NCBI GenBank assembly: GCA_910574865.1
Contig: CAJTDN010000001.1
Location: forward strand, 62,001-126,000
Direction of reading: 5' to 3'
DNA length: 64,000 bases
Source: Lachnospiraceae bacterium
GTDB taxonomy: Bacteria; Bacillota; Clostridia; Lachnospirales; Lachnospiraceae
Position 1 is the first letter of the stretch; every line of letters begins with the position of its first letter. A program made the translations under genes and the position numbers. Shown here in pieces: positions 4,324 to 55,139 of this stretch. The notes under the pieces were generated by a model. The model saw nothing but the letters and a program-made list of their open reading frames with translations, had not been told where the DNA came from and ran no database searches.

Positions 4324-4407
4324 GGTTTCTTCCTCCTGACATTTTCGCTGTGAACGGCACCTGGCAAACGTATACAATTTCATGTTCCATGTGCCTAAAA
4401 TCAATAT

Positions 4408-4416
4408 TTTATAGCA
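4408..4416 (-). promoter_or_regulatory. extended -10 element upstream of GH43
   Basis: On the minus strand TGCTATAAA fits an extended -10 site, about 85 bases before the GH43 start; no clear -35 is seen. Confidence 0.35.
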
Positions 4417-4508
4417 CGTTTTTGAATCTTTGTATTTTAAATTTCATTTTACTGTTATAAATTTGAGTTGCAGTTCAGCCCCGTACCGATGCGAAGCTAA
4501 ATTATAAC

Positions 4509-4537
4509 TTGTTTTTTTCTCTCAAGGCAAGTAAAAT
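4509..4537 (+). promoter_or_regulatory. promoter of the lipoprotein genes
   Basis: TTGTTT at 4509-4514, a 17-base spacer and TAAAAT at 4532-4537, about 47 bases before the start of the FecR lipoprotein gene. Confidence 0.45.
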
Positions 4538-4583
4538 AATACTTGTGACAATGTATTTTACACTGAGAAAGGAGAAACATATC

Positions 4584-7787: not shown

Positions 7788-7870
7788 GTTCTTTTCGCCA
7801 AGCTCGGCTAAGGAAGTTCTTTTCGCTAAACTCGGCTAAGGAAGTTCTTTTCGCTAAACTCGACTTTCAG
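7788..7870. repeat. 28 bp tandem repeat, about 2.7 copies
   Basis: Copies at 7788-7815 and 7816-7843 and a partial third from 7844, each beginning GTTCTTTTCG and containing CTCGGCTAAGGAA. The third copy runs into the 3' end and stop codon of the PfkB gene, so the array looks like a local duplication of that gene's end. Confidence 0.85.
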
Positions 7871-9059: not shown

Positions 9060-9113
9060 TTTCTCACCTCTCTTCCAGCGCCGGCAGTGCCTTTCAGACG
9101 CCGACATGTTCTC

Positions 9114-9248: not shown

Positions 9249-9503
9249 TCAGTCGATTCCCATCAGAAGATTCATCACGTACATCTCCAACGCCTCAAAA
9301 TCGCGGTTCTCCACGCATTTCTTCTGGAAATCATAATCAAAGCGGTTCACTTTTTCTTCCAGCGCCTTGAAAATGTTCAAACTGTTCTCCAGATGCTTGT
9401 AGCAGTCCTCCTGCTTCGTCGTACGCATCGCCTTCACGTCCAGCCCGACATACTCGCCGTGCTCGCCGTATCCGTTCTCCTTCAGTACCTTCACCTTAGG
9501 CAT
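9249..9503 (-). pseudogene. C-terminal remnant of a xylose-isomerase-like TIM-barrel protein
   Basis: 84 residues remain: GYGEHGEYVGLDVKAMRT followed by HLENSLNIF and FEALEMYVMNLLMG, which resemble the C-terminal end of xylose-isomerase-type sugar isomerases. The rest of the barrel, with its metal ligands, is absent, and the fragment stops exactly where the transposon begins. The apparent Met start comes from the junction. No matching N-terminal piece lies on the far side of the transposon. It precedes the kinase and aldolase genes and was probably their operon partner. Confidence 0.65.
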
Positions 9504-17150: not shown

Positions 17151-18530
17151 TTACATTTTTCCCAAGTTCTGATAACTTTTCACCGTCTCCGACAACGCCG
17201 CCTTCTTTTGCTTTTGCAACATTTTCTTCGCCACTTTCACGTCTTCCATGGCCACTTCCACATCCGCAAGCATCCGCTCCCACCCAGCTACCGGATAAAC
17301 ATGCTCTTCCACCACATAATCCGCATTGTGCATCGTCTCTTTGAACGCGAAAATCAAATGATTATGTAAAAACGCCTTATGCACTGCTGAGACAATTTCC
17401 GATTCGTGGTTGATATCAAAATAATAATCACATGTCTCAAACAACTCGTCCAAAATCGAAGTCTTCACGCCCGGATACAGACTCACGTTATCATAAGCGT
17501 CCAACGCGGTCAGCTTGGAAGACATCTCTGTCAAAGCTGTGATATGGAAATGCATCTGTGGCAATGCCTTGACCAACTCCTCACAATGCTCGATATTATC
17601 TGAATTCGTACAAATAAGAGCCTCCGGCTGATGTTTGTTCTCTTTCGCAAACGGATAAATAAATCCAAGCTTGTGTACCATGTCCTTCTTCGCCCCAAGC
17701 TCAATCAACTTGTCATAAGACTTTTTCTTTTGCACCATAACCGTAGCCGTACGACTGGCCTCACCATTAAAAATGGACAACATATTACCCGGTATATCAT
17801 CCCGTGTCGGCTCCTGCCAGAACAGCACATCCCGCTTCACCTGCGACTTCAATCGATTGGACACGAAGAACGGCGTGGACAAGGAATTGAAGAAAATCCT
17901 GCTCTGCTTGAAATTCGCCCGCACGAAAAAATGCAACACGAGTTCCGTCTTGTTGCGGAAAATATGCGTTTCATTCTCCTCGTTCAAAATAATATCACCC
18001 GTAACAAAATTCTCTACAATGATTTCCTTTCCCTCTACTGAAAAATAAGACTTATTCACTTTCTGCCCTTTGTTATTAAAAATCGTCCTGCCATAAATCG
18101 CCCCATAACGATTGTAATGGTCGCTGGAACGAACCACGCCCCGCTCATCATACCAATCCACGATTTTCACAAGCCGCTTGTGCTTCGGCTCGGCATAAAA
18201 CATCCTGCCACGTTCCTTGTACAAATCCTGCACTTTACCATTACTATTCGTCCCACTGATCTCCCAATAATCCGGCACCGTGATTTCATTAAAATATTTC
18301 GGCCTTGCCTTATCTCCTAACATGGCCTTGAAATCACCCAGAAAATACCCATATACCGACATCACGTCGTCAGGCAAGAAGCCATCGTCCTCGATGACTA
18401 CCGCTGGGCAATCAAAACCTGCCATTTTCAAAGATGTATGCAAAGCCTGGCTGTCCTGGTTGTAATTGTCAAACAATAAAATGGCATCATTTAATCTGAG
18501 ATTTTCACTCACTTTAATACTTTTTCCCAT
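17151..18530 (-). CDS. gtfB: accessory Sec glycosylation chaperone GtfB
   Basis: 459 residues. The ATG at 18530 lies inside the end of gtfA (22-base overlap) with GGAGGT nine bases before it, so translation is coupled. GtfB lacks the catalytic residues of GtfA; with GtfA it forms the O-GlcNAc transferase that starts glycosylation of serine-rich repeat adhesins in the cytoplasm. Landmarks are EDDGFLPDDVMSVYGYFLG, the central EBD-like beta region, and CDYYFDINHESEIVSAVHK near the C-terminus. A second, diverged copy lies at 13616-14959. Confidence 0.9.
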   Translation of the reverse strand: MGKSIKVSENLRLNDAILLFDNYNQDSQALHTSLKMAGFDCPAVVIEDDGFLPDDVMSVYGYFLGDFKAMLGDKARPKYFNEITVPDYWEISGTNSNGKVQDLYKERGRMFYAEPKHKRLVKIVDWYDERGVVRSSDHYNRYGAIYGRTIFNNKGQKVNKSYFSVEGKEIIVENFVTGDIILNEENETHIFRNKTELVLHFFVRANFKQSRIFFNSLSTPFFVSNRLKSQVKRDVLFWQEPTRDDIPGNMLSIFNGEASRTATVMVQKKKSYDKLIELGAKKDMVHKLGFIYPFAKENKHQPEALICTNSDNIEHCEELVKALPQMHFHITALTEMSSKLTALDAYDNVSLYPGVKTSILDELFETCDYYFDINHESEIVSAVHKAFLHNHLIFAFKETMHNADYVVEEHVYPVAGWERMLADVEVAMEDVKVAKKMLQKQKKAALSETVKSYQNLGKM

Positions 18531-19999
18531 TGTTGTTCCACCTCCTCAGTAAAATATTCCTTTGCCTTTTCATAAGAATGTTGATGAAATGCTTTCAAAT
18601 CCGCTTCCGTGAACAAGCGAACGATACATTCCGTCAGACATTGAACCCTCTCCTTCTTTTCCATCTTGTCGTGCACGGCAATCAAATATCCGTTCTTTCC
18701 GTCATCGATAAAATTCTGATTCCCATAGCGCACGTCAAAACCGATAATTGGCAACCCTGAACCCACCGCTTCCATCAAAGTAAGTCCAAACCCTTCACTG
18801 GTAGACCCTGACAAGTAAGCTTCATAATCCTTATATACCTCATCAAGATTATGCTGCCCGCAAAGTCGTACATAATCGCCACATTTCAACGTCTCAATCA
18901 ATTTCTTTAACTTAACTTCCTCCCCACCTTTTCCGTAAATATCCAGCGAAATGCCTGGCACTTGCTCCCTTGCCTTTGCAACCGCCTCTATCAACCAATC
19001 CACATGTTTTTCATCTGCCAACCTTGATGCCGTAATCAGCGAATGCTTCTTTCTCTCTTTTTTCGGACGCTTTAACTCATCAATACTTCCCACCGGAATC
19101 GTCACAATCTTTGGAATAACGCCCTCATATTTCTTAAATTGATTTTTCAGCAACTGATTTTGAGTATCCGTGGAAGTCACATAAAACTTAACATGCTTAT
19201 TCTGAGCGAAAGAATATTCATAATAGTTATTCCAGAGGACATGTTCTTCATCCGTGCTACCCTCGCTGAAATGATCCGCATGAATTACGATACCAATCCG
19301 TGCCGGAGCCGCATTTTGCATAATCGCTTGTCCAATTCCCGTCGTTCTATCAATGATAACCACATCTTTCCGTGTCAGCTTCAAGCGTGACACCATGTAC
19401 CCCACCAATTCCTCCTTCGAACAAATCAACCTATCCGGAAACTGATACATCACCACGTCGTTATCCGAGATTTCCTCATAGGCAACCGTCCCATCTTCGT
19501 TGAAATATCTCCGCTGGTAAAGATGAGCTTTATTGTCCAACGGCGCATAATACTCCGAATAAATCCGACAATATGTATAATAATCTTTTCGAATCAGGCA
19601 ACCATTAGAAACCATTTCCACACGATGCACCCTGTTTTCCTTTTCATTTACCAAGTACACCATATAATAACTGTTTGTTCCGGGAAACGTATACTTGGCC
19701 GTGGCCCCCTCCCTCGAACACGTAAAACGCCCGCTACCAAACGTTTTTTCCAGTTGTCGTAAAGTGTACGTTACCGGTGAAGTCTTACAGTCCGTGAAAA
19801 ATGTATATAACCAAATAACCTCCGAATCCAAGAATCCTATATTCTCTGCCATGTGCTGAATATTGTCCCTCGGAAACATATCCGTAAACACGAATTTCGC
19901 TTCTTGCCCAATCTTGCGCAAGACCTTCGCCCGATAAGCTTGCGCATATTCCACTCCGCTACTTGCCCATCCAATTCCTAAGTTAAAATTGTAAACCAT
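18509..19999 (-). CDS. gtfA: accessory Sec glycosyltransferase GtfA
   Basis: 496 residues from ATG 19999, preceded by GAGGAGTGA; the start MVYNFNLGIGWASSGVEYAQ is typical of GtfA. Residues 1-~200 include the extended beta-sheet domain that binds GtfB and acceptor; residues ~310-500 hold the retaining GT-B catalytic half with the E-x7-E motif in EGFGLTLMEAVGSG. It transfers GlcNAc from UDP-GlcNAc to serines of the adhesin before export. Lies between gtf3 and gtfB in the order seen in lactic acid bacteria. Confidence 0.92.
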   Translation of the reverse strand: MVYNFNLGIGWASSGVEYAQAYRAKVLRKIGQEAKFVFTDMFPRDNIQHMAENIGFLDSEVIWLYTFFTDCKTSPVTYTLRQLEKTFGSGRFTCSREGATAKYTFPGTNSYYMVYLVNEKENRVHRVEMVSNGCLIRKDYYTYCRIYSEYYAPLDNKAHLYQRRYFNEDGTVAYEEISDNDVVMYQFPDRLICSKEELVGYMVSRLKLTRKDVVIIDRTTGIGQAIMQNAAPARIGIVIHADHFSEGSTDEEHVLWNNYYEYSFAQNKHVKFYVTSTDTQNQLLKNQFKKYEGVIPKIVTIPVGSIDELKRPKKERKKHSLITASRLADEKHVDWLIEAVAKAREQVPGISLDIYGKGGEEVKLKKLIETLKCGDYVRLCGQHNLDEVYKDYEAYLSGSTSEGFGLTLMEAVGSGLPIIGFDVRYGNQNFIDDGKNGYLIAVHDKMEKKERVQCLTECIVRLFTEADLKAFHQHSYEKAKEYFTEEVEQQWEKVLK

Positions 20000-20044
20000 A
20001 TTCACTCCTCCTCGTTTCAATTAGATTATAATATTTTTATAAAA

Positions 20045-21061
20045 TCAATCATATAGCAAATGAAAAACCGCATCTGTTAATGCCTTTTTTGTAAAATATC
20101 CTTTCCGTATTAATTCTCCAAATTTGTCTACACTTCGTACCATTTGATTATATTGCTCCTTAGACATTCCATCTACTTTTTCAACTGCTTCATCAAGAGA
20201 GTCTACAACTAGCCCTAATTTCTTACGATTAATCGTACTCGCCTCCGAAATACTACTATGAACGATTACAGGAATACCTGCTGCAAGATAAAGACTTAAT
20301 TTGCTACAAGCATTTAGTTTCATATATTCTCCCCAGTATCCATTTTCCGTCCATAACAAACCGAATCCTCCGCCATTTCTCAACACATTTACCAATGCAT
20401 TTTGATTTTGAAACCACCCCAAAAACTTAATATTCTCACCGTGCTTCCAAGCTCCCTCCCTAGCTGTGACTGCTAATTTAACATTATTATATTTCCATTT
20501 TTGAACAAATGAAAATTTATCACCATCTGTTTTCCCGGCAAAACTTATCTGCTTATTAAATTGAGGGATTACTGAAGTATCAACCAAAACTTGACAATCC
20601 CACATTCTCTGTATGACAATCTTCCGTACCTTGAGCCCTTCCGAAGATAACAATTCAACCATCTTCTTAGATGGCACAATTATCACATCCGCTTGATTAT
20701 ATAGTTCAACATATCTTCCCAAAAGATAGCGATTGTTTTCAAACATCAGCGGTGTAACATCATTTATAAAAAATATTTTTTTTATTCCTCTATATATGTT
20801 CACTCGTTTAATTAAAGATTCGTCAAAAGCTATGCCATTCCATGACGGACACTGAAAAATTACAATGTCTTCCTCTCCCAGTGCTGCCAAAATACCATCC
20901 AATCTTGCCCGAAGCATCTCTGAAGAATCTGACTCTACCGGATAATGATATATTCCTAATTCATTAAAACCTAATACATCTTTTGCGATATCCGCCACCA
21001 TATGCTGAGACTCCATTGCAGCTCCTACAACATTATAGACATTCGTAATATGAATTTTCAT
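20045..21061 (-). CDS. gtf3: Gtf3-type glucosyltransferase
   Basis: 338 residues with a GT-B fold and the layout of Gtf3/Nss enzymes, which add glucose to the GlcNAc placed by GtfA/GtfB. Family-like features: NVYNVVGAAMESQHMVADIA at the start, FINDVTPLMFENNRYLL, SFAGKTDGDKFSF, and CSKLSLYLAAGIPVIV near the nucleotide-sugar site. The gene is clearly AT-richer than secA2 next to it. It lies 45 bases before gtfA in the same operon; ATG 21061 is preceded by GGGGAGGAGCGG. Confidence 0.85.
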   Translation of the reverse strand: MKIHITNVYNVVGAAMESQHMVADIAKDVLGFNELGIYHYPVESDSSEMLRARLDGILAALGEEDIVIFQCPSWNGIAFDESLIKRVNIYRGIKKIFFINDVTPLMFENNRYLLGRYVELYNQADVIIVPSKKMVELLSSEGLKVRKIVIQRMWDCQVLVDTSVIPQFNKQISFAGKTDGDKFSFVQKWKYNNVKLAVTAREGAWKHGENIKFLGWFQNQNALVNVLRNGGGFGLLWTENGYWGEYMKLNACSKLSLYLAAGIPVIVHSSISEASTINRKKLGLVVDSLDEAVEKVDGMSKEQYNQMVRSVDKFGELIRKGYFTKKALTDAVFHLLYD

Positions 21062-21139: not shown

Positions 21140-23536
21140 TTATGGAAACACGATATGCATTCGTTTCTCTTCATCCACATACACATTACTCAACATGATG
21201 CTCCGCATCGCGTTTTCAAACACCGTATTTTGCATTTTTTCAAACGAATCAAACGCCTCATTCTGGTACTCAAACAACACATTTCTCTGAGCCGTCGACC
21301 TTCCTGATACTGCCGCCTGAAGCTGTTGCATGTAGTCGACCTGCTCCACCCATGCGTTATCAATCGCGCTAAGCACTGCTACGCGAACAAACGAGTTGGT
21401 ATCCTCCACACCCAAGTCCCTTTCCCGCTCGTCCAACCGTTGTTCCACTTTCCCAAGCAGATATTCCTCGATGGATGCGCGGTCACTCGTCGTGGTATCT
21501 GGAATGTCCTTTTCCAAATGATAAGAAATATTATCCAAAATGTATCTGGTTAGCGTTCTTCTATCTATGCATCCGGCTCCCCCACTCTGTAAGTCAAGAA
21601 AGTTTTCTATATTCTTCCTCGCCATCTCCAATATCTGCTCTCGCTCAATGTTCCCGCCATCCAGCAAATGGTTTCTGGTTTCATAAATCAGATTTCTCTG
21701 CCGTTGCATAATCTTATCATAATCGACCGAGCTTTTCCGCGACATTACGGACGATTCTTCCCCCACTTTCTGGGCTTTGTCAATGATTTTTTTCAGTTTC
21801 CGTCGGCTGATTTTCTTTTCACCTTCGATATATTTCTCATATCGTTCCGATTTTCCACCATCTACCACGCTGTCTTCTAGCGAAACGAAGAAACAACTGG
21901 TTCCCACGTCCCCTTGTCTTCCGGCGCGTCCCCTCGCCTGGCGTTCCGTGCGGACATTCATCATCCGCCCGACACCAATAACGGCAAGACCGCCCAAGTC
22001 TTCCACGCCCTCGCCCAATTTGATGTCCGTACCACGTCCGGCCATAGACGTGGCCACGGTCACCGTGCCATACTGCCCGGCTTCTTTGACAATCTGAGCC
22101 TCCCAGGCCGCATTGTTCGCGTTCAACACGTTATGCGGGACTTGTTCTTCCAACAACCCTTTAGAAACAGCTTCCGTGTCCACGATGTTAGAAGCCACAA
22201 TTAGCACGGGGCGTCCCGTCGCGTGAAGTTCCAGCGTTTCTTCTACTGCCGCTCGTATCTGTTCCTCCTTGTTTCGAAAATAGCGGTCTGGCAAATCCAC
22301 CCGCTGGCTCGGAAGATTCGGCGGAATCACCAACACCTTCACCCCATACACGCTTCGGAGCTCATCCACCGCGTCAGCCATCGTGCCACTCATGCCAGCC
22401 ATTTTGGGAAACAGCAGGAACAGATTTTGGTAAGTGACTGCCGCCACGGAACGGTTTTCCTGCGAGATTTCCACGCCTTCTTTTGCCTCCAACGCCTGAT
22501 GCTGACCGCCGCGCAGCTTCATTCCATTCATCAAGCGCCCGGTACTACTATCTAAAAGCGTCACTTTCCCATCCTTCGTCACCATGTAGCCATCGCCTTT
22601 TTCAAACATCTTGTGGGCACGCAATGCCAAAGTCACATGGCGGTTGATTTCAAAATATTCCTCACTATAAAAGTTATCTGTCTGAAAAAACGTCTCGGCA
22701 TATTTGATTCCGTCATCCGTCAACCATACCGTCTTATCTTCCTCTTCATAATCCTCGTCTTCCACCATGGTCGTGACAAAAAAATCTGCCATCGTATAAA
22801 GGTTTGATTGCACTCTCGGCAAGCCGGAAATAACAAGCGGAGTTTGCGCTCCATCCAAAAGCACGGAATCCGCCTCGTCAATAATCACATAATAGAACTC
22901 CCGCAAAAATCGTTCTTCTGCTCTTGTCACCAAGTTATTTAAAAGATAATCAAATCCAATCACACTATGGGTCGTATAGAGAATGTCAGCCGCATACATC
23001 TCCTTTTTATCCGCATTTGAAGATTTTACCGCCCCGACTTTCCCTGATTTGGAATTTTCCATCGCATTTCCTTGTTTGGATTCATCCTCCTCTTTTCCCA
23101 CTGATGCCACGGAAAGTCCCATGAATCGGTACACCGGCCCCATCTCTTCCGCATCACGTCTGGCAAGGTATTCGTTTGATGTCACCAGTATGACGCTTTT
23201 CCCGGTAAGGGCATTAAGATACAAAGGCATCGTAGCTACCAAGGTTTTTCCCTCACCTGTATTCATCTCTGCCAGATATCCCTGATGTAGGGCAATTCCT
23301 CCCAACACTTGCACGTCATATGGGGCCATCCCCAGTATCCGATAATCCGCCTCACAAATGGCCGCGAACGCTTCCGGCAAAAGGTCATCCAAGCTCTCGC
23401 CTTCCGCCAGCCGTTCCTTGAATTCCGCAGTCAAATGCGACAATTCCTCGTCTGTTAATGGCTCGTACTTCTCCTGCCACCTTCTGACCTCACGCACGAT
23501 TCTATTCAGTTTCCTTAGTTTCCATCTCTGCCTCAT
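21140..23536 (-). CDS. secA2: accessory Sec translocase ATPase SecA2
   Basis: 798 residues. ATP-driven motor for export of the glycosylated adhesin. Motifs: Walker A MNTGEGKTLVAT, DEAD-box IIDEADSVLLDG, GMSGTMADA, and SMAGRGTDIKLGEG with ARGRAGRQGD. It lacks the Cys-rich zinc-binding tail of housekeeping SecA, as SecA2 proteins do, and carries a ~35-residue charged insert before ADILYTTHSVIGFDYLLNN. The ATG at 23536 lies just past the asp3 stop; a GTG at 23542 overlapping that stop is an alternative start. Confidence 0.95.
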   Translation of the reverse strand: MRQRWKLRKLNRIVREVRRWQEKYEPLTDEELSHLTAEFKERLAEGESLDDLLPEAFAAICEADYRILGMAPYDVQVLGGIALHQGYLAEMNTGEGKTLVATMPLYLNALTGKSVILVTSNEYLARRDAEEMGPVYRFMGLSVASVGKEEDESKQGNAMENSKSGKVGAVKSSNADKKEMYAADILYTTHSVIGFDYLLNNLVTRAEERFLREFYYVIIDEADSVLLDGAQTPLVISGLPRVQSNLYTMADFFVTTMVEDEDYEEEDKTVWLTDDGIKYAETFFQTDNFYSEEYFEINRHVTLALRAHKMFEKGDGYMVTKDGKVTLLDSSTGRLMNGMKLRGGQHQALEAKEGVEISQENRSVAAVTYQNLFLLFPKMAGMSGTMADAVDELRSVYGVKVLVIPPNLPSQRVDLPDRYFRNKEEQIRAAVEETLELHATGRPVLIVASNIVDTEAVSKGLLEEQVPHNVLNANNAAWEAQIVKEAGQYGTVTVATSMAGRGTDIKLGEGVEDLGGLAVIGVGRMMNVRTERQARGRAGRQGDVGTSCFFVSLEDSVVDGGKSERYEKYIEGEKKISRRKLKKIIDKAQKVGEESSVMSRKSSVDYDKIMQRQRNLIYETRNHLLDGGNIEREQILEMARKNIENFLDLQSGGAGCIDRRTLTRYILDNISYHLEKDIPDTTTSDRASIEEYLLGKVEQRLDERERDLGVEDTNSFVRVAVLSAIDNAWVEQVDYMQQLQAAVSGRSTAQRNVLFEYQNEAFDSFEKMQNTVFENAMRSIMLSNVYVDEEKRMHIVFP

Positions 23537-23538
23537 CG

Positions 23539-24072
23539 TCACTTATTCCGCTTCTTCATCTTTTCCTTTTTCTCACGCCTTTTTTCCTTTTTCGACTTTC
23601 TCTGCCACCACTTGCGCTTTGGCTCTTCTTCTGGCTCCTGCTCCACCTCTTGTACATCAATCGAATGAAAACGAAACCGCGTCATCCCGCTATTAATCAA
23701 CTGCATCCGATAGCTATAAGTCTTAAGCGGGCACCGGAAGCTCGTCCCCGTCTCCCGGATAGTGACACTCCCCGCTTCCACGTCGTACTTGTCATAAAAC
23801 ACCAAACGTACAATCCATGCCTCGCCTTCCCGGCAGTCAATGTCAACCAGCATCTGATACTCGCTCTCCCCATCAATCATCGGCAAAGCCGGCTCGATTC
23901 TCTGTGCCTGGTAATTTGTCTTGGAATGCCATTGTTTTATTATCGTCCCGGGCGGCATCAGCAAATTTTCAAATTCCACGTCGTCTATCTTGTGATACCA
24001 TATTTCCGAACCATAAAGATACGTGTCCGAGGAATGCTCGTTCCAATAGATTTTCCACTTTTCCCCTATCAT
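23539..24072 (-). CDS. asp3: accessory Sec system protein Asp3
   Basis: 177 residues from the ATG at 24072, which overlaps the asp2 stop by four bases and is preceded by GGAAAGA. Asp3 binds Asp1 and Asp2 to form the complex that guides the glycoprotein to SecA2. Recognisable Asp3 sequence: KIYWNEHSSDTYLYGSEI, NLLMPPGTIIKQWHS, and LPMIDGESEYQM. The last ~35 residues are a Lys/Arg-rich tail (KRKWWQRKSKKEKRREK), longer and more basic than I would expect. Confidence 0.88.
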   Translation of the reverse strand: MIGEKWKIYWNEHSSDTYLYGSEIWYHKIDDVEFENLLMPPGTIIKQWHSKTNYQAQRIEPALPMIDGESEYQMLVDIDCREGEAWIVRLVFYDKYDVEAGSVTIRETGTSFRCPLKTYSYRMQLINSGMTRFRFHSIDVQEVEQEPEEEPKRKWWQRKSKKEKRREKKEKMKKRNK

Positions 24073-25616
24073 TTCTTTCCTTTTCTCCTGCCAAAATCCT
24101 CGGCCAATATTTTTCCATACTGATTCAAAAACCAACTTATAATGCCTGATGAATTGTCATTATGGCGACCATGCAATCCTTTCCCATACACCTGTGCCCC
24201 TTCTGACTGAATATGGGAAATCAGCATCTGGTAGGCATTTGCATCATAATCATCCTCCATCATATAAGAAATGGCAAACTTGGAGTTCCCCCAATCGGTC
24301 GTCTCAAATTTATTCCAGAATTTCGCGTTCAACGCTCGTATGGCTTCCTCATCCGATGCCCCGCACTGGAAACGCAATACGTCCAACGAAGTCGGGAACC
24401 CGCCCGGACGGACGTATTTTTCATTCGCCGCCACGTCTCCCACGCTGGCCAGTGGTTTTCCCAAAATAATGGCATGTGGTCGTATATCGCACCCATAATA
24501 CAACGCCCCGTATGTGCCCATGGACAATCCCGACAGTACGACCTGATCCGCCGTAAATCCAAGTTCTTTCATATACTTTCGAATCATCTCGACATATATT
24601 TTCTCATACTCTTCCGAGCCCATATAGAAAGCCCCGCCTTCTAAACGTGGTTCCGCTATTAACAAATACGGGCAACCCATCCCCTTCATCATGTAATAGC
24701 CTTCAAACCCCTGCAACGTTTTGTATCCCGAAAAATAGACACAAAGCGGTGGCTGCAAATCACCCGGCTCAAAGTAGCAGAAAGCCTCTTCCCCATTAGC
24801 TGTCACATGTCGTTCACCGCCTGGTAAAAAGTACCCATGGCTTCCTCTTGACTTTCTTTGGTGCAACGCGATAATCTCAAGCTTTCCTTTCCCTTTAGCA
24901 GAAATCGAAATAAACACCGGCCCCGTTCCCTTGCTTTCAAGTTGAATCACCTGTTGCAAATCCTCTTCATCAAATTTCCATTGTCCAATAACATGTGAAA
25001 TACTACCATTTGCAAACTGCGTGATTTCCATAGATATGGAAACCGTCGAATCCTTACTATATTCTAACCACAAGTCGCTTCCTTGCCCTTGGCTCAAGAA
25101 CGTATTATATCGCCAATAGGCCACCTGGCGAAACTCTTCTCCAAAATCATTTTCCAATTCTACGCTATAATTTCCGTTCCACTTCACTTTTCCTGAAAAT
25201 CCTTGGGCGATAGCAATATCCTTCATATTAAACTTGGAACCATATGGCTTTGGAAAATAGTACTTCGTCTCTTCCAGCAAAAACCTCTGGATATCTATGG
25301 ACGTAATATGCTGCGCCCTTTTGCAGCGGCAAAGCCATGCCACATCCCCTTCTATTTCCACGTTCTTCGTAATAAAAAGCGTATATGCCTTTATCGCCTG
25401 ATATAACGGCTTTATCTCTTCCTCCAACGGCGTTCTGTCAAAAAAGAACATGTCATATGGTTTCATAGGCTTCTTCGGCCTTTTTCCCTCGTCCTCTTCC
25501 GGCACGTCTTCCTCTTTTCCAAAACATTCCACATAATCCAAATGTACCCACTCCGGCAATGTATAAACGTTACTCCAATTCTCGTTCCCCAACTGTAAGA
25601 TATGAATCTCCTCCAA
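24069..25616 (-). CDS. asp2: accessory Sec system protein Asp2
   Basis: 515 residues; the start is uncertain (TTG at 25616, overlapping the end of asp1 by 47 bases). The C-terminal half is an alpha/beta-hydrolase-like domain with the nucleophile motif GLSMGTYGALYYG. In streptococci Asp2 is both part of the Asp1-3 export complex and an acetyltransferase acting on GlcNAc of the adhesin. Other Asp2 features: HILQLGNENWSNVYTLPEW at the N-terminus and a central beta domain. Overlaps asp1 and asp3. Confidence 0.9.
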   Translation of the reverse strand: MEEIHILQLGNENWSNVYTLPEWVHLDYVECFGKEEDVPEEDEGKRPKKPMKPYDMFFFDRTPLEEEIKPLYQAIKAYTLFITKNVEIEGDVAWLCRCKRAQHITSIDIQRFLLEETKYYFPKPYGSKFNMKDIAIAQGFSGKVKWNGNYSVELENDFGEEFRQVAYWRYNTFLSQGQGSDLWLEYSKDSTVSISMEITQFANGSISHVIGQWKFDEEDLQQVIQLESKGTGPVFISISAKGKGKLEIIALHQRKSRGSHGYFLPGGERHVTANGEEAFCYFEPGDLQPPLCVYFSGYKTLQGFEGYYMMKGMGCPYLLIAEPRLEGGAFYMGSEEYEKIYVEMIRKYMKELGFTADQVVLSGLSMGTYGALYYGCDIRPHAIILGKPLASVGDVAANEKYVRPGGFPTSLDVLRFQCGASDEEAIRALNAKFWNKFETTDWGNSKFAISYMMEDDYDANAYQMLISHIQSEGAQVYGKGLHGRHNDNSSGIISWFLNQYGKILAEDFGRRKGKK

Positions 25617-27204
25617 CGCTCTCCATCACCTCTCTCCATTTTTCCAACAGCTTCTCTGTCGTGTACTCCTTGACCAGTTCATAAGAACAGACCATCGCCC
25701 GGTTCCAGTTTCTTAAGCCGTCCAAATAATAATGCAACGCCTTTGGCAACCTTTCCATGTCCCTCAATATGATTCCGTTCCTGCTGTGCTCAACAAATTC
25801 CGTCTTCGTACGCACGATTTGGGGAATCCCGATGCTGATTGCCGTAATCTGCAAATACAGCTCTGGCACCTCGCGCATGTCGACCAGCACCCGCTGCTCC
25901 CGCATGCACTTGCTCACCGACAACTCATCCACGCATTGTTCCACAAAAAAACGTATCGGAACCGGTTCTTCCAACTCCAGAATATTCTCCGCGACATTCC
26001 CTTTTTCTTCCTCGACCGCCCACCCCTCTTCCAAGCCTGCCAGCCGAAGCTCGTTGCGGGCATGTTCCAGCACCTTTTGCTTTCGGTCATACTCCGCACT
26101 TCTGGTAAAGAGGTGAATCTGCGCGTTTTCATTCATCAGAAGGTACTCTCCCAAAAGCCGTATCAATTCTGCAAATTCCTCATCCGCGATACCGTCTATC
26201 GGAACCATGATTTTCTGCACATCAAATTGCAGGCTTATCCCCGCATCCACCCGTGAATCATAAGGGGGAATCGCCATAATGTTGGAAAGCAGCATCCCCG
26301 CCTCTTCCTGGAGTTTGTCCACGCTTTTATTCGAGTCCACGACAAGGTAATCCGCCTCTTTTATCATGTCCGGCCCTTCCGGATGTGATGCCACCGAATA
26401 GCGTTCCTCAAAAAATGACAAAATCCTTTTTTTATTTTTTAACGCCTCTCCCAATAACCTGACATGCTGCCCATGCATTGCCACGCAGAAAATATCTCGC
26501 TCATCCGTCAAATCCAAATAAGACGTGAGCACTTCATAAATGACTTGTTCCAGATTGTCATAGCGTAGCTTTGCATATCGCTTACGGTATTCCTCTCCCT
26601 GATACTGCAACAAATATTCAGGGCATTTTTCATTAATCTCTACATGACCGTCCCGCAGGAAATGGCGCATTTTCCATGTCCCATTCTCCATCAGATAATC
26701 CTGGTGGAGCGGCTGTTCGTTTTCAAAAATAATCGTACTGGAAATGAATCCTCTGTCATCATAATTGTTGCGACGATGCAACTTGCCATTCTGATACAAA
26801 TCAATTCGGATGGGGTTCCCATCCTCCCCGAAATCTATCTGCGCGTATCTTTCCTTTTTCAACATGGCAACGACCACGAACGGCGTATAGACAAACTCGA
26901 TTCCTTCCGGCCACTTCAAATTGTGAAAAGACAGCACGACCGCCTTTTTCCTCCGCACCTCTTGCATCGCGTCGAAGCACGACCAATATGGGGCACGATA
27001 CATCCCCTGCCGATGGAGGAAATGGCGGAAATTCGGGGCAAAACTAAGGAGCATAATCTGGTACGGGTAAGCCTTATTGCGGTGAAATAACTGTATCTGC
27101 TTCACGGTGTCATCAAACTCCGTGTGCATACGCCGAACCGTCCATCTCTGCTCGTTTTCACACCACTGATTCTGTTGATACCAAGCCGGAATAAAATATA
27201 GCAT
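25570..27204 (-). CDS. asp1: accessory Sec system protein Asp1
   Basis: 544 residues from ATG 27204, preceded by GGAGGAAAAG. Asp1 has a GT-B-like fold without known catalysis and forms the scaffold of the Asp1-3 complex that binds the glycosylated adhesin and SecA2. N-terminal signature MLYFIPAWYQQNQWCENEQR, then YDDRGFISSTIIFENEQPLH as in GtfB-like beta domains. It lies 18 bases after secY2 and overlaps asp2. Confidence 0.9.
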   Translation of the reverse strand: MLYFIPAWYQQNQWCENEQRWTVRRMHTEFDDTVKQIQLFHRNKAYPYQIMLLSFAPNFRHFLHRQGMYRAPYWSCFDAMQEVRRKKAVVLSFHNLKWPEGIEFVYTPFVVVAMLKKERYAQIDFGEDGNPIRIDLYQNGKLHRRNNYDDRGFISSTIIFENEQPLHQDYLMENGTWKMRHFLRDGHVEINEKCPEYLLQYQGEEYRKRYAKLRYDNLEQVIYEVLTSYLDLTDERDIFCVAMHGQHVRLLGEALKNKKRILSFFEERYSVASHPEGPDMIKEADYLVVDSNKSVDKLQEEAGMLLSNIMAIPPYDSRVDAGISLQFDVQKIMVPIDGIADEEFAELIRLLGEYLLMNENAQIHLFTRSAEYDRKQKVLEHARNELRLAGLEEGWAVEEEKGNVAENILELEEPVPIRFFVEQCVDELSVSKCMREQRVLVDMREVPELYLQITAISIGIPQIVRTKTEFVEHSRNGIILRDMERLPKALHYYLDGLRNWNRAMVCSYELVKEYTTEKLLEKWREVMESVGGDSYLTVGERELE

Positions 27205-27222
27205 CTTTTCCTCCAAGTTGTT

Positions 27223-28428
27223 TTAAAATAGCGGATGGCATGCGTCATATTTACGTATGGAAACCAATTCCCGATATATCGTACACCAGAAGCTGGTCAT
27301 CATCATGATGGAAGATGGCAGCATCGTAAGCGTGCTATCTATGTTCCCCCTCAACTGTAAAACTAACGGCACCAATATGCACACGCCCATGACCGTGGCA
27401 CTGGAAAGGCTGGTGCGCCACATGACTTTTCGCAGATACCGTCTCGTGTCACGCCCCGCATGAAGATTCACGATACTGTCACCGCTTTTTAAAAACTGCT
27501 CCGTAATGTCCTTGGGACTGACCATGAGCATCGCAAGTCCTATCGTGAGCAGATACTCGCACGCGATATACATCGCGATTCCGACCGGATTTGTCAAGTT
27601 CATGTTCATCTGCAGCCACACAAAGCCTTCATACTGCGGGAACAAACTTCCCAGCAAAGAAAGCAGGAGCCGGACCAGCATAAGCACGGCCGATGAAAAC
27701 ATGACCGGCATGACCCCCACCGGGTTCAACTTGATTGCCATATAGTTCTTGTCCGCATAGACATTGTGTATGGACACCCGCTGCACGGGAATCCGCATCT
27801 CCGCATTTTCCATGACGAGCGTAATCAGCATCACGCCTAACGATATCGCCAACGGAACCACCAGCTTCTCCATGTCATGGTTTCGCAATGTCACCGAAAT
27901 CCTCTCCAAAATATTGACCAGACCCACAATCATCCGCCCGCCGACCCCGTATCTGCCATTTCGGTTGGACAACCACATGATGATCATGACACCGGTAACC
28001 ATTTCCAGTCCCGCCATCAGCTCCGCATAAAAAAGGTTCTCATCTGCCACCGCGAATTTCAATTGCGGAACTTGAACTATCGCCTGCAATATGGCGATAA
28101 CAAGCATCACCGTGACCATCGCCTTGCTCATTGTCTTCGGGGACACCCTTGTCTTGGTAAACAGACCCCGAATCGCAAAGGCAACTTGCACCAATATGCT
28201 TGATATCATAAACGGAAAAATACCTAGCGCAAAAACCGAGGAACGATACGCGTCCCCGCTAATCGCCTGCATCAGTATTTCTTCCGCACCGACCGATTTG
28301 TAAGAATAGGCAGACAAATCTATGCCATATAGGGGAATACATTTCCCCAATGTATATATAAGAAGTATTAAGCCCGTGTACGCAAGCTTGTACTTCATCG
28401 CATTCTCTTTTTGATTGGTTCGTGACAA
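27223..28428 (-). CDS. secY2: accessory Sec translocon SecY2
   Basis: About 401 residues. The start is not certain: the TTG at 28428 has AGGAG seven bases before it; the ATG at 28401 is an alternative. About ten hydrophobic segments match a SecY-type channel (LAYTGLILLIYTLGKCIPL first; ALGIFPFMISSILVQVAFAI; NPVGVMPVMFSSAVLMLV). Shorter in the cytoplasmic loops than housekeeping SecY, as is usual for SecY2. It forms the membrane pore used by SecA2 and the Asp complex. A strong hairpin at 28451-28487 lies just upstream. Confidence 0.9.
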   Translation of the reverse strand: MSRTNQKENAMKYKLAYTGLILLIYTLGKCIPLYGIDLSAYSYKSVGAEEILMQAISGDAYRSSVFALGIFPFMISSILVQVAFAIRGLFTKTRVSPKTMSKAMVTVMLVIAILQAIVQVPQLKFAVADENLFYAELMAGLEMVTGVMIIMWLSNRNGRYGVGGRMIVGLVNILERISVTLRNHDMEKLVVPLAISLGVMLITLVMENAEMRIPVQRVSIHNVYADKNYMAIKLNPVGVMPVMFSSAVLMLVRLLLSLLGSLFPQYEGFVWLQMNMNLTNPVGIAMYIACEYLLTIGLAMLMVSPKDITEQFLKSGDSIVNLHAGRDTRRYLRKVMWRTSLSSATVMGVCILVPLVLQLRGNIDSTLTMLPSSIMMMTSFWCTIYRELVSIRKYDACHPLF

Positions 28429-28450
28429 AATAACTCTCCTAATTTTCATG

Positions 28451-28487
28451 AATCGGCAGCCACCACGTTTCATGGTGGCCGCCGATT
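28451..28487 (-). other. strong intra-operon hairpin
   Basis: AATCGGCAGCCACCA pairs with TGGTGGCCGCCGATT (one mismatch) around a 7-base loop, between the 50-residue gene and secY2. No U-run follows on the minus strand, so it looks like a processing or mRNA-stability structure rather than a full terminator. It could set a high adhesin-to-translocon ratio. Confidence 0.6.
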
Positions 28488-34600: not shown

Positions 34601-35013
34601 GTGTCCGCTGACGGAGCATCTGCATTTTGCACAGTCTCGACTGGCGCGGTCGCGTTATTTTGCACGGCTTCCGCTGACGCGGCTGCCTCATTTTCCACAG
34701 TACCGGCTGGCGCGGCCACGTTCTCTGCCACGCTCGCCGCTTCTTCGTACGAAGTTGCCGCTGCCGCTTCTTCCGCTATCGACTTCTCGGCAGAAGGAAT
34801 GATGACTTCGTTCGACGTGTCGAACTGATCAAGTTCACCCTCGGCGGCGTATACAACATTCGCGTCAGCAAGCATGTCAACTCCGCCAATTGCGACACCG
34901 GCGGCCACGACACCCTTTAAGAGCGTCTTTGCCTTCTTGCTCTTAACATTTTTCTTTTTGCTCATGTTATTACCTCTATTCCTTTCTTTGCTCATGGACG
35001 TGCCACGAAGCAT
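28660..35013 (-). CDS. serine-rich repeat adhesin, accessory Sec substrate
   Basis: About 2,117 residues from ATG 35013 (GGGAGG seven bases before); ATG 34965 with GAGGT is an alternative. The N-terminus has a basic stretch, a Gly-rich hydrophobic core ([14 protein letters not shown]) and cleavage near VVYA-AEG, like GspB-type SecA2 signals. Then an acidic, Ser/Ala-rich region, a first serine-rich segment, a ~200-residue non-repetitive domain (around [19 protein letters not shown] and [21 protein letters not shown]) that is the likely binding region, then about 300 SASE units. The C-terminus has VPLANTN, one membrane helix and a [16 protein letters not shown] tail; there is no LPXTG. Surface adhesin, glycosylated by the Gtf proteins before export. 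Confidence 0.93.
29410..33000 (-). repeat. 12-bp coding repeat array (SASE units)
   Basis: About 3.6 kb of a 12-base unit encoding Ser-Ala-Ser-Glu, close to 300 copies, with synonymous variation between units (AGC/TCG/TCC, GCA/GCG) and very few amino-acid changes (single Asn, Thr, Val, Lys and Leu variants). No stop codons arise in most frames, which produces long false frames on both strands. The array is expected to change length by recombination or slippage. Confidence 0.95.
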
Positions 35014-35043
35014 CATGACACCTCCCACACGGATGCAAAGTGT

Positions 35044-35125
35044 CCGGCGGCCGGGCTGGCATAGTACCTAAAGCACCTTAGCCCCCTTAGCTTTGCGTCC
35101 CGCCGTTTCCAACGGTTTGCTAATT
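35044..35125 (-). promoter_or_regulatory. c-di-GMP-I (GEMM) riboswitch 3, nearest the adhesin
   Basis: On the minus strand: TTAGCAAACC, a short stem with a GAAA-type loop (CCGTTGGAAACGGCGG), the conserved GGACGCAAAGC, GGGGGCTAAGG, and TATGCCAGCCCGG. It ends about 30 bases before the start codon. GACAC at its edge (35040-35044) can pair with GTGTC at 35017-35021, next to the GGGAGG ribosome-binding site, so control of translation is possible. Confidence 0.85.
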
Positions 35126-35126
35126 G

Positions 35127-35268
35127 AATTAGCAACCGGGCTGACGTAGTCTTTGCGCCAACGCCTTGCTTGCAAAACGTTTTGCGCCCGCTTGTCACGG
35201 TTGCCCATGACAAAAAGACCGTAGTCCCCATGGCTTTGCGTCCCGCCGTTTCCGGCGGTTTGCTAATT
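35127..35268 (-). promoter_or_regulatory. c-di-GMP-I (GEMM) riboswitch 2, with enlarged arm
   Basis: AATTAGCAAACC at the 5' side pairs with GGTTGCTAATT at the 3' side to close the structure. The GNRA-like stem CCGCCGGAAACGGCGG is followed by GGACGCAAAGCC, GGGGACTACGG and ACGTCAGCCCGG. The third arm is about 70 bases longer than in its neighbours and folds into extra hairpins (TTGTCA...TGACAA, GCAAAACGTTTTGC). Confidence 0.85.
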
Positions 35269-35269
35269 G

Positions 35270-35360
35270 AATTAGCAACCAGGCTGACATAGTGTCAAAT
35301 GTAAAGACACCTTAGTCCCTATGGCTTTGCGTCCTACCGTTTCCGATAGTTTGCCAAAAT
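35270..35360 (-). promoter_or_regulatory. c-di-GMP-I (GEMM) riboswitch 1, promoter-proximal
   Basis: TTGGCAAAC, stem CTATCGGAAACGGTAG, GGACGCAAAGCC, AGGGACTAAGG, a TGTC.../GACA arm and TATGTCAGCCTGGTTGC. All core motifs of the class are present; the closing stem is weaker on the 5' side. Confidence 0.82.
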
Positions 35361-35372
35361 GTGTTCGCACGT

Positions 35373-35880
35373 TATTCTTATGCGAGCCATCCGTTTACGT
35401 TGCCATCCCCGCTGACATTGACGGCTCTTGACAATGGGTCGATATGTCTGGCAGACACATCCGCCGCCCCCTCCTTCCCGCGCATACTCACCACCACTTC
35501 GCGCTCTTTCACCACTATGCCTGACACGCTCCGTCGGCTCCGACGTTTTCCGGCACGGCGAGTATCAGGAGACCCGCACGAATGTGCCAGTCCATCCATC
35601 TTTGCCATGCCCGCTTGCCCGTCCCTGGCAACGCCAGGTTTTACCACGCACAAGCCAACAGCCCCGCGGTAATCAGCGAAGTTGTTCGTCCTCCCGCCTA
35701 CAATAACGGGGTATGTGTCCCGCGATGTACGTTAGCGCCCTTTATGGAGCCACGGCTCGTTACCCGCAGGAACCAGTTTGTCAAGGTGTACCCGTCCGGG
35801 TATCCCACATCAAACGCGCTCCGCGCCAGCGGACTCTTACGAGTCCGTCAAAGTACACTTTGGCGAACTGGATAACACAC
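35373..35880 (-). ncRNA. hairpin-rich ~0.5 kb leader of unknown class
   Basis: This GC-rich stretch lies between the promoter and the riboswitches and would be transcribed. It is dense in perfect small hairpins: CAAAG/CTTTG, GGACTC-GTAA-GAGTCC (a GNRA loop), TACCC/GGGTA, GAGCC/GGCTC, CCTGGC-GTT-GCCAGG, CGTCGG-AG-CCGACG. CCAGTT and AACTGG could close the first ~100 bases. Its reading frames are short and mutually out of register. A large structured RNA, or a decayed element, are both possible; I cannot name a class. Confidence 0.4.
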
Positions 35881-36028
35881 AGAAAAAACATTCATAATTT
35901 ATGTATGTTTTTACTAGTATATCCCTTTTCTTTAACACTGTCAATTATTTGAGGTCTATATTTGCGAGAAATTTGCCATTAAAAAGCTATATATATGTAT
36001 TTTCCTTGTATTCGCCAAAGTGTGCTTT
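35850..36028. repeat. invertible promoter segment (inverton) with 18 bp inverted repeats
   Basis: The arms are 35850-35867 (minus strand TTCGCCAAAGTGTACTTT) and 36011-36028 (plus strand TTCGCCAAAGTGTGCTTT), 17 of 18 identical, in opposite orientation, 143 bp apart. Each centres on a GT dinucleotide flanked by CAAAGT and (A/G)CTTT(G/C), the layout of serine-recombinase crossover sites. The enclosed DNA is AT-rich and carries the only good promoter for the adhesin operon, now pointing towards it (ON). A serine recombinase gene lies 47 bp away. Confidence 0.8.
35916..35944 (-). promoter_or_regulatory. promoter of the adhesin/accessory Sec operon
   Basis: Minus strand: perfect TTGACA (35944-35939), 17-base spacer, TATACT (35921-35916). 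Transcription would start near 35908, inside the invertible segment, giving a leader of about 900 bases. Confidence 0.85.
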
Positions 36029-36074
36029 CATGAACTTCGACAAATCTTTCGTGCTTTTTCTGCAGATTGCCTTG

Positions 36075-36677
36075 TCAAAGTCCCAATTGTTTTACATATT
36101 TAAAAAAGTACGTGCGCCCGATTCCCAGTTCCGTCAGCGCCTCTTCCAGCCCGATTTCCTTCTGCCGCCATTTTCCAACCACGTCCTCGAACGCGTCCGG
36201 CAGTGGCTTGCCCGGATTTCCAAAATGCACGCCCCGCTCCCTGGCCGCCGCGATTCCTTGTGCCTGGCGTTTCCGAATGTTTTCCCGCTCGTTCTGCGCC
36301 ACGTAAGATAGGATTTGCAAGACCAGGTCCGCAACGAATTTTCCCGTCAAATCCTTCCCCTTGTCCCTCGTGTCCAAAAGCGGCATGTCCAAGACGACGA
36401 TGTCCACCTGCTTTTTGCGGGTGAGCATGCGCCATTGCTCCAGGATTTCCTCATAGTTGCGCCCCAGCCGGTCAATGGACTGCACCACGAGAAGATCGCC
36501 CTTCTTTATTTTCCTCAGCATTTTCTGATAAGATTTCCGCTCAAAATCCTTCCCGCTCTGCTTGTCCATGAAAATGTGCTCCTCCGCGATTTCAAAATTT
36601 TGCAGGGCGATTTTCTGCCTGGCCTCGTTTTGCTCCTTGGTCGATACGCGGACGTATCCATAAACCGTGCTTTTCAT
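36075..36677 (-). CDS. small serine recombinase (resolvase/invertase family)
   Basis: 200 residues, the size of Hin/Gin-type invertases. The N-terminal catalytic domain has the nucleophile Ser in YGYVRVSTKEQ and the arginine motif QSIDRLGRNYEEI; the long helix ends in NERENIRKRQAQGIAAARERG; residues ~155-200 are a short helix-turn-helix. ATG 36677 is preceded by GGAGGATTGAATAA. It is transcribed towards the inverted repeats flanking the adhesin promoter and is the obvious enzyme to flip that segment. A transposon-type resolvase is the alternative, but no transposase lies beside it. Confidence 0.9.
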   Translation of the reverse strand: MKSTVYGYVRVSTKEQNEARQKIALQNFEIAEEHIFMDKQSGKDFERKSYQKMLRKIKKGDLLVVQSIDRLGRNYEEILEQWRMLTRKKQVDIVVLDMPLLDTRDKGKDLTGKFVADLVLQILSYVAQNERENIRKRQAQGIAAARERGVHFGNPGKPLPDAFEDVVGKWRQKEIGLEEALTELGIGRTYFFKYVKQLGL

Positions 36678-36908
36678 TTATTCAATCCTCCATTTTCAAC
36701 TTAATGTACCTGATTATTGTACTTCAAAATTAAGATTTACTCCCTTGAAATGAAAAATCTCTTCCAGACGGTGCGCGGATACAACCGGTAATCCACAACC
36801 GAAGTAAAATAGGGATTGTCAAAATATTTTTCACAAAAGATTTTTATTTTCTGCAAAAATCCTCTTGAAATTTTCCGACAATGCCCTACAACGAAGGGAG
36901 AATTGTTT

Positions 36909-37242
36909 ATGGAGAAACGAACGTTGCAGGAATTGAACTTGTTGGACGACTTCCTATTTGGAAAGATAGTCACCTACCCGGGAATCGGGGAGCGGTTTTG
37001 CAAACAGCCTCCCGACACCGTCTTGGGTGTGAAACTGGACAAGATAAAAATTGTCCCACAGGAAATGTACTTAGGCGCGGACACGAATCTGCACGGTGCC
37101 AGACTGGATGTCTACATCGAGGAGGAGAATGGATAGCGAAGTGACTTTGGACTATATGAAAACATTTGAACATGACAAAATGATATATGAAAAGTGCACG
37201 GAGCTTTTGAAGCAACTCCGACAAGGCCTCAACAAGATTTAA
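36909..37242 (+). pseudogene. Rpn / PD-(D/E)XK nuclease-family transposase, internally deleted
   Basis: From ATG 36909 (AAGGGAGAA before it) a frame reads MEKRTLQELNLLDDFLFGKI and ends at 37136 with ARLDVYIEEENG, the start of the Rpn/PDDEXK nuclease domain up to an acidic active-site motif. A shifted frame from 37129 gives EVTLDYMKTFEHDKMIYE, like the C-terminal end of the same family, stopping at 37242. The ~200 residues between are missing. Complete members are ~300 residues and spread in clostridial genomes. Confidence 0.7.
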
Positions 37243-54683: not shown

Positions 54684-55139
54684 GAACAAAGTCCGGCCGG
54701 ACTCTCGCGCTGGAGCGCGGCTGCGGCAGCAGCCATTTTCCTTAGGCGCGAAGTGCGCATCCACCCGGAGGGTTTTGTGTCATCCTATGACATGATACAA
54801 GCGTCAAAAGGTCATGCGTTTCATGCTTGCATGAAAAAGGATGACTTTGGGACGCGCAAAACACCGAAAAGTAGCCATTTTTCGCAGAAAAATGAGCGGA
54901 TTTGAGGTGTTTTAGGATTACGGGAGTGCGTTAGCACGGAGTAATCCGTGTATCATGAGCGTCAAAATACCTTTTGACGCTCTAATCATGACATAAAAAG
55001 ACCTGCTTTTCGTGACGAAAATGTGGTTACCTGGGACAAGGTACTGGTAAAAAGAGGAAAAATAAGATAAGATGCTGCCTGAAATGAAACGTGCCACACA
55101 CGCGGAAAACGGGACATGAAAATAGTTGGGAGGTAAATC
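54684..55139. other. 456 bp intergenic region with nested hairpins
   Basis: No gene. Inverted repeats in order: GGCTGC/GCAGCC near 54718, AAAACACC/GGTGTTTT (about 54858-54915) enclosing CATTTTT/AAAAATG, GGATTAC/GTAATCC with an inner GTGC/GCAC (about 54914-54948), and GAGCGTCAAAA/TTTTGACGCTC (54958-54983). The last could terminate the upstream GH5 transcript. The GH5 start at 55140 has TTGGGAGGT before it. Confidence 0.5.

Follow-up and report, generated by a model that had tools for sequence, protein, structure and literature searches.

Genes and leader of the adhesin locus

The window, i.e., the whole 64,000-nucleotide stretch of Lachnospiraceae DNA analysed here, contains the genes for SecY2, SecA2, Asp1, Asp2, Asp3, GtfA and GtfB together with a serine-rich substrate, a combination that marks an accessory Sec/serine-rich adhesin locus. 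All of them were found on the minus strand, and the adhesin and accessory Sec island described in the earlier note on this DNA was thus recovered (Table 1). Residues 641-1940 of the adhesin consist of 50% Ser, 24% Glu and 24% Ala. Its open frame reaches a GTG at 35028 and contains another in-frame ATG at 35016; the start adopted in Table 1 is matched in L141, a locus of genome G273 from another genus of the family. Beyond the last of the accessory Sec and glycosyltransferase genes lies a transposase-like gene (DUF772/DDE; 9588-11060, plus strand), and elsewhere in the window a Clostridiales-1 RNA was found (54793-54955, plus strand, 115 bits).

Table 1. Predicted genes and regulatory features of the adhesin locus, with positions in the window
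Feature	Position	Strand	Evidence or remark
GtfB glycosylation chaperone	17151..18530	-	TIGR02919, 506 bits, cut-off 338
GtfA-type glycosyltransferase	18509..20020	-	Pfam GtfA_EBD 3.3e-41
Sugar transferase (PRK09814 type)	20045..21061	-	NCBIfam 4.4e-121, 404 bits, below equivalog cut-off 491
SecA2	21140..23542	-	Pfam SecA_DEAD 7.6e-102
Asp3	23539..24135	-	Pfam Sec-ASP3 4.5e-46
Asp2	24069..25616	-	Pfam Asp2 7.2e-185
Asp1	25570..27216	-	Pfam Asp1 1.6e-107
SecY2	27223..28473	-	Pfam SecY 5.7e-42
Serine-rich repeat adhesin, 2101 aa	28660..34965	-	ATG at 34965, stop at 28660
c-di-GMP-I aptamer 3	35043..35131	-	RF01051, 70.2 bits; just ahead of adhesin start region
c-di-GMP-I aptamer 2	35196..35274	-	RF01051, 39 bits, above gathering 35; whole-genome search only, absent from cmscan output
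c-di-GMP-I aptamer 1	35271..35365	-	Rfam RF01051, 72.9 bits, gathering 35
Putative distal crossover site	35842..35867	-	Central GT on minus strand, inverted relative to proximal site
Putative invertible segment	35868..36010		143 bp; reversed relative to collinear flanks in L029/G008
Predicted sigma-70-type promoter, TTGACA-17-TATACT	35916..35944	-	11/12 match; faces adhesin in this assembly (ON)
Putative recombinase-proximal crossover site	36011..36036	+	Central dinucleotide GT
Serine recombinase, 200 aa, Hin-sized	36075..36677	-	Pfam Resolvase E 4.1e-31

The leader between the presumed switch and the adhesin is about 940 nt long and carries three tandem c-di-GMP-I riboswitches according to Rfam, which had escaped the earlier note. 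The stretch of aptamer 2 contains an enlarged hairpin (positions 35120-35280 fold with z -5.55), and an 81-nt direct repeat is common to the aptamer 2 and aptamer 3 regions. These three were the only RF01051 matches found in the 5.3-Mb genome of the window, for which 150 of 509 first-look candidates were scored. A 475-base riboswitch leader was matched over its full length in 2 of 61 relatives (the window's own genome, G000, and G008) and over short stretches in four others, G273 lying outside this sample. No terminator-like site turned up between 34800 and 37200, a range that includes the leader in full, and a translational or Rho-dependent output of the riboswitches is therefore more likely than a simple terminator. 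Given three riboswitches in the leader, a DNA switch ahead of them would be only the first of two probable controls.

Inverted sites, promoter and recombinase

The 18-bp inverted arms reported in the earlier note are present at the positions given there and are identical at 17 of 18 nucleotides. In a repeat search they lengthened to 26 nt, being 85% complementary with 143 nt between them, and the 18-bp arms are the cores of two 26-nt sites of invertase type in inverted orientation. Both sites are imperfectly palindromic about GT and their GT cores are oppositely oriented, a layout that a serine invertase needs. Among 400 dinucleotide shuffles of 34800-37200, none contained an inverted pair matching at 17/18 with a spacer of 50-400 nt; of 30 shuffles of the entire 64 kb, two did. 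When the genome was searched for the 18-bp site pattern with at most three mismatches, 15 places were found versus 12 for a reversed-pattern control. The 13 places outside the switch are thus at background level; they were rejected as further genomic targets of the recombinase, and no second target is claimed.

The promoter within the segment, predicted by its match to the consensus, had been called perfect. This holds for the -35 hexamer, but the -10 hexamer TATACT matches at just 5 of 6 positions, giving 11/12 overall. At the scan threshold it is the sole promoter-like site on the minus strand of 34800-36100, and a weak match (9/12) lies on the plus strand inside the segment at 35869-35898. 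When the spacer was shuffled 1000 times, 20 of the shuffles gave a match of at least 11/12.

The gene next to the proximal site does encode a Hin-sized serine recombinase (Table 1). Its place beyond one arm was correctly read, but the distance from its stop codon to the 18-bp arm is 46 bp rather than 47; from the edge of the 26-nt arm it is 38 bp. Relatives of known structure are Sin (7.2e-31), gamma-delta resolvase (3.4e-19) and a DNA-invertase (4.2e-15), and the translation contains an RVS motif, which we take to be the site of the presumed serine nucleophile.

A comparison with assemblies of relatives, as the earlier note had suggested, was made at the level of related species and revealed the segment in the reversed orientation between collinear flanks. 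The locus concerned, L029 (contig CAOKHZ010000038.1, G008:C38), is from the same genus as the window, encodes a recombinase 92% identical to that of the window and carries both sites, the leader with the two strong c-di-GMP-I aptamers, and the start of the adhesin; the contig breaks off within the adhesin, and a search of the G008 assembly gave no Asp1. The segment aligned to that of the window with a score of 163 when inverted versus 37 in the same direction. The downstream flank aligned collinearly with 830 identities, 74 mismatches and 136 gap positions, and the flank on the recombinase side, also collinear, with 594 identities, 102 mismatches and 7 gap positions. In the comparison with G008, the segment and its arms matched on the plus strand and the flanks on the minus strand. 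As the segment is reversed between collinear flanks, the window would be in the ON orientation, with the promoter directed to the adhesin, and L029 in the OFF orientation, with the promoter directed to the recombinase; the promoter hexamers of L029 are identical and point the opposite way. Inversion is therefore directly supported, at the level of sequence, by one genome pair representing two species of one genus. The difference in orientation could possibly be caused by an assembly artefact, L029 being one contig of a metagenome-assembled genome, or be an old inversion fixed in an element that no longer switches. This is very unlikely, since the sites still match within each genome (17/18 in the window, 18/18 in L029) despite a diverged spacer, the recombinase frame is open in both, and ordinary reads can span repeats as short as 18-26 bp.

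Relatives of the recombinase, taken as the best 80 of 332 found in genome contigs, showed a similar arrangement. Within 320 bp downstream of the gene, 20 of 74 loci had inverted pairs matching at 20/24 or better, compared with 2 of 78 upstream stretches of 320 bp and 0 of 74 shuffles; these counts were drawn from the 80 loci after exclusion of those with less than 320 bp. In a looser scan covering 1 kb on each side, 31 of the 80 loci had an inverted pair versus 12 of 400 shuffles, some of the 31 pairs lying upstream of or overlapping the gene, so that they need not be sites. A recombinase tree was built from 46 rows, i.e., the window, 28 of the 80 loci and 17 paralogues, the row of L184 being artefactual. 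The window and L029 formed a pair (99/96) within a clade of 11 rows (98/94) that also contained L030-L038. Eight of the 11 clade members, the window included, have an inverted pair of GT-core sites just downstream of the recombinase at no more than 6 substitutions in 22 from the distal site of the window; L034, L036 and L037 have no pair at this threshold. Between the sites, a promoter-like match of 11-12/12 is found in seven members (the window, L029-L033 and L035) and one of 9/12 in L038. Inverted sites and a promoter thus recur beside close relatives of the recombinase, which together with the reversed segment in L029/G008 upholds the inversion proposed in the earlier note. The element has the features of a serine-invertase invertible promoter: inverted sites with a common core, a small recombinase nearby, an internal promoter (by sequence match) and both orientations in nature (between two species of one genus).

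In the window, the best promoter-like match is directed away from the recombinase, whereas in the other seven of the eight it is directed at the 3' end of the recombinase gene (L038 having just 9/12). The genes that follow vary, e.g., an alpha-L-fucosidase second in line in L030, an epimerase-like gene in L032 and a VTC-domain protein in L035. Both observations would also fit a flip that mainly controls the recombinase, with the OFF promoter making antisense RNA to the recombinase gene and so stabilising the OFF state while the adhesin is a bystander. For the window this is highly improbable, as the promoter there is aimed at a conserved leader of riboswitches and adhesin, and as the same leader in G273 comes after an unrelated but likewise organised element (see below).

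It is scarcely credible that a fixed promoter simply happens to lie between meaningless repeats next to an unrelated resolvase. The distal arm lies partly in a dispersed repeat (35802-35858) and so need not have arisen as a site, but the shuffle controls, the site pair found across the clade and the reversed segment of L029 all speak against chance; on the first two of these, a chance origin of the repeats was rejected. The dispersed repeat, which adjoins and partly takes in the distal arm, has 16 more copies in the window's genome and many in G008 and G011. In six copies inspected by eye its boundary looks like half a recombinase site, and the distal site may therefore have originated at a copy of the repeat.

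A model in which a stochastic flip acts in series with c-di-GMP sensing to govern an accessory-Sec glycoprotein, with a dedicated recombinase inverting the 143-bp segment and the ON promoter driving the leader, the adhesin and probably the Sec genes, is in our view highly probable. The Hin-sized serine recombinase would bind the two inverted GT-core sites and flip the segment between them. In the ON orientation, that of this assembly, transcription is predicted to start at the promoter of the segment, which would be active and read through the leader into the adhesin, and the transcript would probably continue into secY2-asp1-3-secA2-gtf as one operon. In the OFF orientation, that of L029, the promoter would fire back to the 3' end of the recombinase gene. 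The flip would determine in which cells the adhesin can be transcribed, and whether this happens in ON cells would depend on c-di-GMP, presumably sensed through the three aptamers. With three tandem c-di-GMP-I riboswitches in the leader, a cell would need both the ON orientation and a permissive level of c-di-GMP.

The earlier note had expected inversion to turn the whole island off. An effect of the switch on the Sec genes may be expected from their co-orientation with the adhesin on the same strand; they may also have some expression of their own, given two promoter-like matches of 10/12 ahead of secY2 on the minus strand (28755-28726 and 28632-28603). It is also conceivable, if unlikely, that the segment inverts while the adhesin is mainly transcribed by read-through from the promoter of the recombinase, with the orientation acting after initiation, as reported for Rho at the flagellar switch of Clostridioides difficile. 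The recombinase and the adhesin do share a strand, and the recombinase stop codon is close to the nearer site, but the presence of an 11/12 promoter in the segment, the conservation of its hexamers in L029 and the promoters of 11-12/12 between the sites of L030-L033 and L035 all argue for initiation within the segment.

Accessory Sec loci in other genomes of the family

Asp1 was present in 10 of 299 genomes of the family, in 17 of 392 sampled in the order (the two sets overlap) and in 4 of 12 of the genus. Twenty-five accessory-Sec loci were scanned, of which 12 were assessable, i.e., had an adhesin-like frame and at least 773 bp of upstream DNA; seven of the other 13 were without an adhesin-like frame and six were at a contig end. 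A switch-like element was identified in three of the 12, in G273 by the scan and in the window and G002 by separate analyses, as the automated scan took a wrong frame as the adhesin of the window and the sites of G002 were under its threshold. In the remaining nine, no inverted pair reached 17/20 within 3.5 kb; in several of them (e.g., L173, L174, L178 and L180) the chosen frame is a long way from secY2, and the true substrate may be another one. At the gathering score, c-di-GMP-I was found in 2 of 10 loci of one set (L141 and the locus of G008, L149) and in 0 of 7 and 0 of 7 loci of two further sets, these sets comprising loci other than L154, L172 and L179-L182. With nine of 12 loci lacking a pair and with few c-di-GMP-I or leader matches, accessory-Sec loci of the family do not generally have either part.

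The leader and adhesin start of L141 aligned to those of the window with 446 identities, 69 mismatches and 110 gap positions, and the leader contains two strong c-di-GMP-I aptamers and a weak third below the cut-off of the Rfam family. Ahead of it are two arms matching at 23/24 and lying 123 bp apart, and the segment between them holds a promoter-like TTGACT-17-TAAAAT (10/12) directed away from the adhesin. In neither orientation is this segment more similar to that of the window than shuffles are, 49 and 154 of 200 of these scoring equally high. The contig starts 299 bases before the first arm, which limits the stretch available for a neighbouring recombinase.

In G002, which belongs to the genus of the window, a paralogous recombinase (9.7e-63 to that of the window) is accompanied by two sites with GTAGAC/GTCTAC cores, read by eye and below the thresholds used, and by a 10/12 promoter-like match directed to the next genes. 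After this match follow a GGDEF gene (Pfam 3e-35), a BTAD regulator gene, a serine-rich frame of 1728 codons and accessory Sec genes. The stretch with the adhesin, L155, has no c-di-GMP-I riboswitch at the gathering level. The diguanylate cyclase (GGDEF) gene, at L155:7499-8584 on the minus strand, lies between the recombinase and the accessory-Sec adhesin, and the switched stretch may thus bring its own source of c-di-GMP.

These loci lead us to favour, by a narrow balance, the proposal that accessory-Sec adhesins of Lachnospiraceae have on more than one occasion come to be controlled in two stages, a stochastic promoter flip and, in series with it, c-di-GMP. For the second stage, the genera of the window and of G273 would use a conserved triple riboswitch leader, and G002 a diguanylate cyclase gene on the switched stretch. 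As the flip module can apparently be swapped for an unrelated one while the leader and the adhesin persist, the phase-variable logic, and not one particular recombinase, would be what is kept.

Known switches and recombinase paralogues

In the flagellar phase variation of Salmonella, a promoter-bearing segment between inverted sites is acted on by Hin, a serine recombinase, and the hin gene lies inside the invertible segment together with a Fis-bound enhancer. The window resembles this system in its Hin-sized serine recombinase and its promoter-bearing segment between inverted sites, and differs in that the recombinase gene is outside the segment, with 38 bp between it and the proximal site. 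In C. difficile, RecV is a tyrosine recombinase encoded away from the flagellar switch. As in the flgB and cmrRST operons of C. difficile, an invertible element and a c-di-GMP riboswitch are combined on one surface-related operon of a gut clostridium (PMC6837544; PMC9286219; PMC7446863). Going by the available portions of these papers, RecV inverts the C. difficile flagellar switch (PMC7446863), an invertible promoter is described for pdcB (PMC9286219), and the targets are flagella and a signalling system, unlike the glycoprotein adhesin with its own Sec system, the adjacent serine recombinase, the promoter inside the segment and the three tandem aptamers found here. In a C. difficile figure legend, class II riboswitches are shown with the factors that they up-regulate and class I riboswitches with those that they down-regulate (PMC9286219). 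For an adhesin, by contrast, a rise with c-di-GMP would be expected by analogy.

We know of no c-di-GMP riboswitch at the capsule loci of gut Bacteroides. There too, as far as the available text goes, promoter inversion governs surface structures of a gut commensal, of another phylum and with another target (PMC12355684). Three tandem c-di-GMP riboswitches in one 5' leader are found in Bc3-5 of Bacillus thuringiensis, where reporter control was more stringent and digital than with one or two riboswitches; the target is cspABCDE, and the abstract mentions no invertible promoter (PMC4759541). The streptococcal accessory Sec systems likewise export a serine-rich adhesin by means of SecY2, SecA2 and Asp proteins, with neither a DNA switch nor a c-di-GMP riboswitch mentioned in the opening parts of the abstracts (PMC5578698; PMC5076819). 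The parts of the present locus are therefore of known kinds, and their combination was not found in the literature searched. An invertible promoter joined with an accessory Sec system was not encountered in this search, beyond which most subscription papers lay. Titles and abstract openings on phase variation of serine-rich repeat or accessory Sec systems gave no DNA inversion at such a locus, and the pairing of a c-di-GMP riboswitch with accessory Sec returned, in partial text, just an RNase survey and a C. difficile envelope paper. The terms looked for were absent from the available portions of two papers on gut invertons (PMC11892184; PMC10939037).

If the model is true, gut Lachnospiraceae would hedge their bets in displaying a giant and probably glycosylated adhesin, with c-di-GMP as the gate, and the state of the switch could be read from metagenome DNA. 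It would also be a second case, in another bacterial lineage and with another class of recombinase, of an operon under both DNA inversion and c-di-GMP riboswitches, which suggests that the logic is convergent with that of C. difficile.

The genome of the window encodes four more recombinases with 49-57% identity to the one described here. A more distant paralogue, in L168 of the same genome (G000:C16:1-15000), lies at 3878-4549 ahead of csrA and flagellin genes, recognised by likeness of their translations, with two inverted-looking sites visible downstream of the recombinase; L168 is a probable flagellar phase switch. Other such distant paralogues precede csrA (Pfam) and flagellin genes in L164 (G008:C12) and flagellin (Pfam) in L163 and L166. 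The presence of recombinase paralogues by csrA and flagellin genes in the same genomes offers an entry to asking whether switches of adhesion and motility are coordinated. In L170 (G000:C1:440000-459999), again of the window's genome, a recombinase at 9260-9904 is followed by a gene (7851-9107) with BTAD and a GGDEF match just under the Pfam cut-off, and one clear site was seen. In G006:C25, a Cas12f1-like TNB-domain protein (L161:7236-8663, minus strand) is encoded directly downstream of a gene of the recombinase family.
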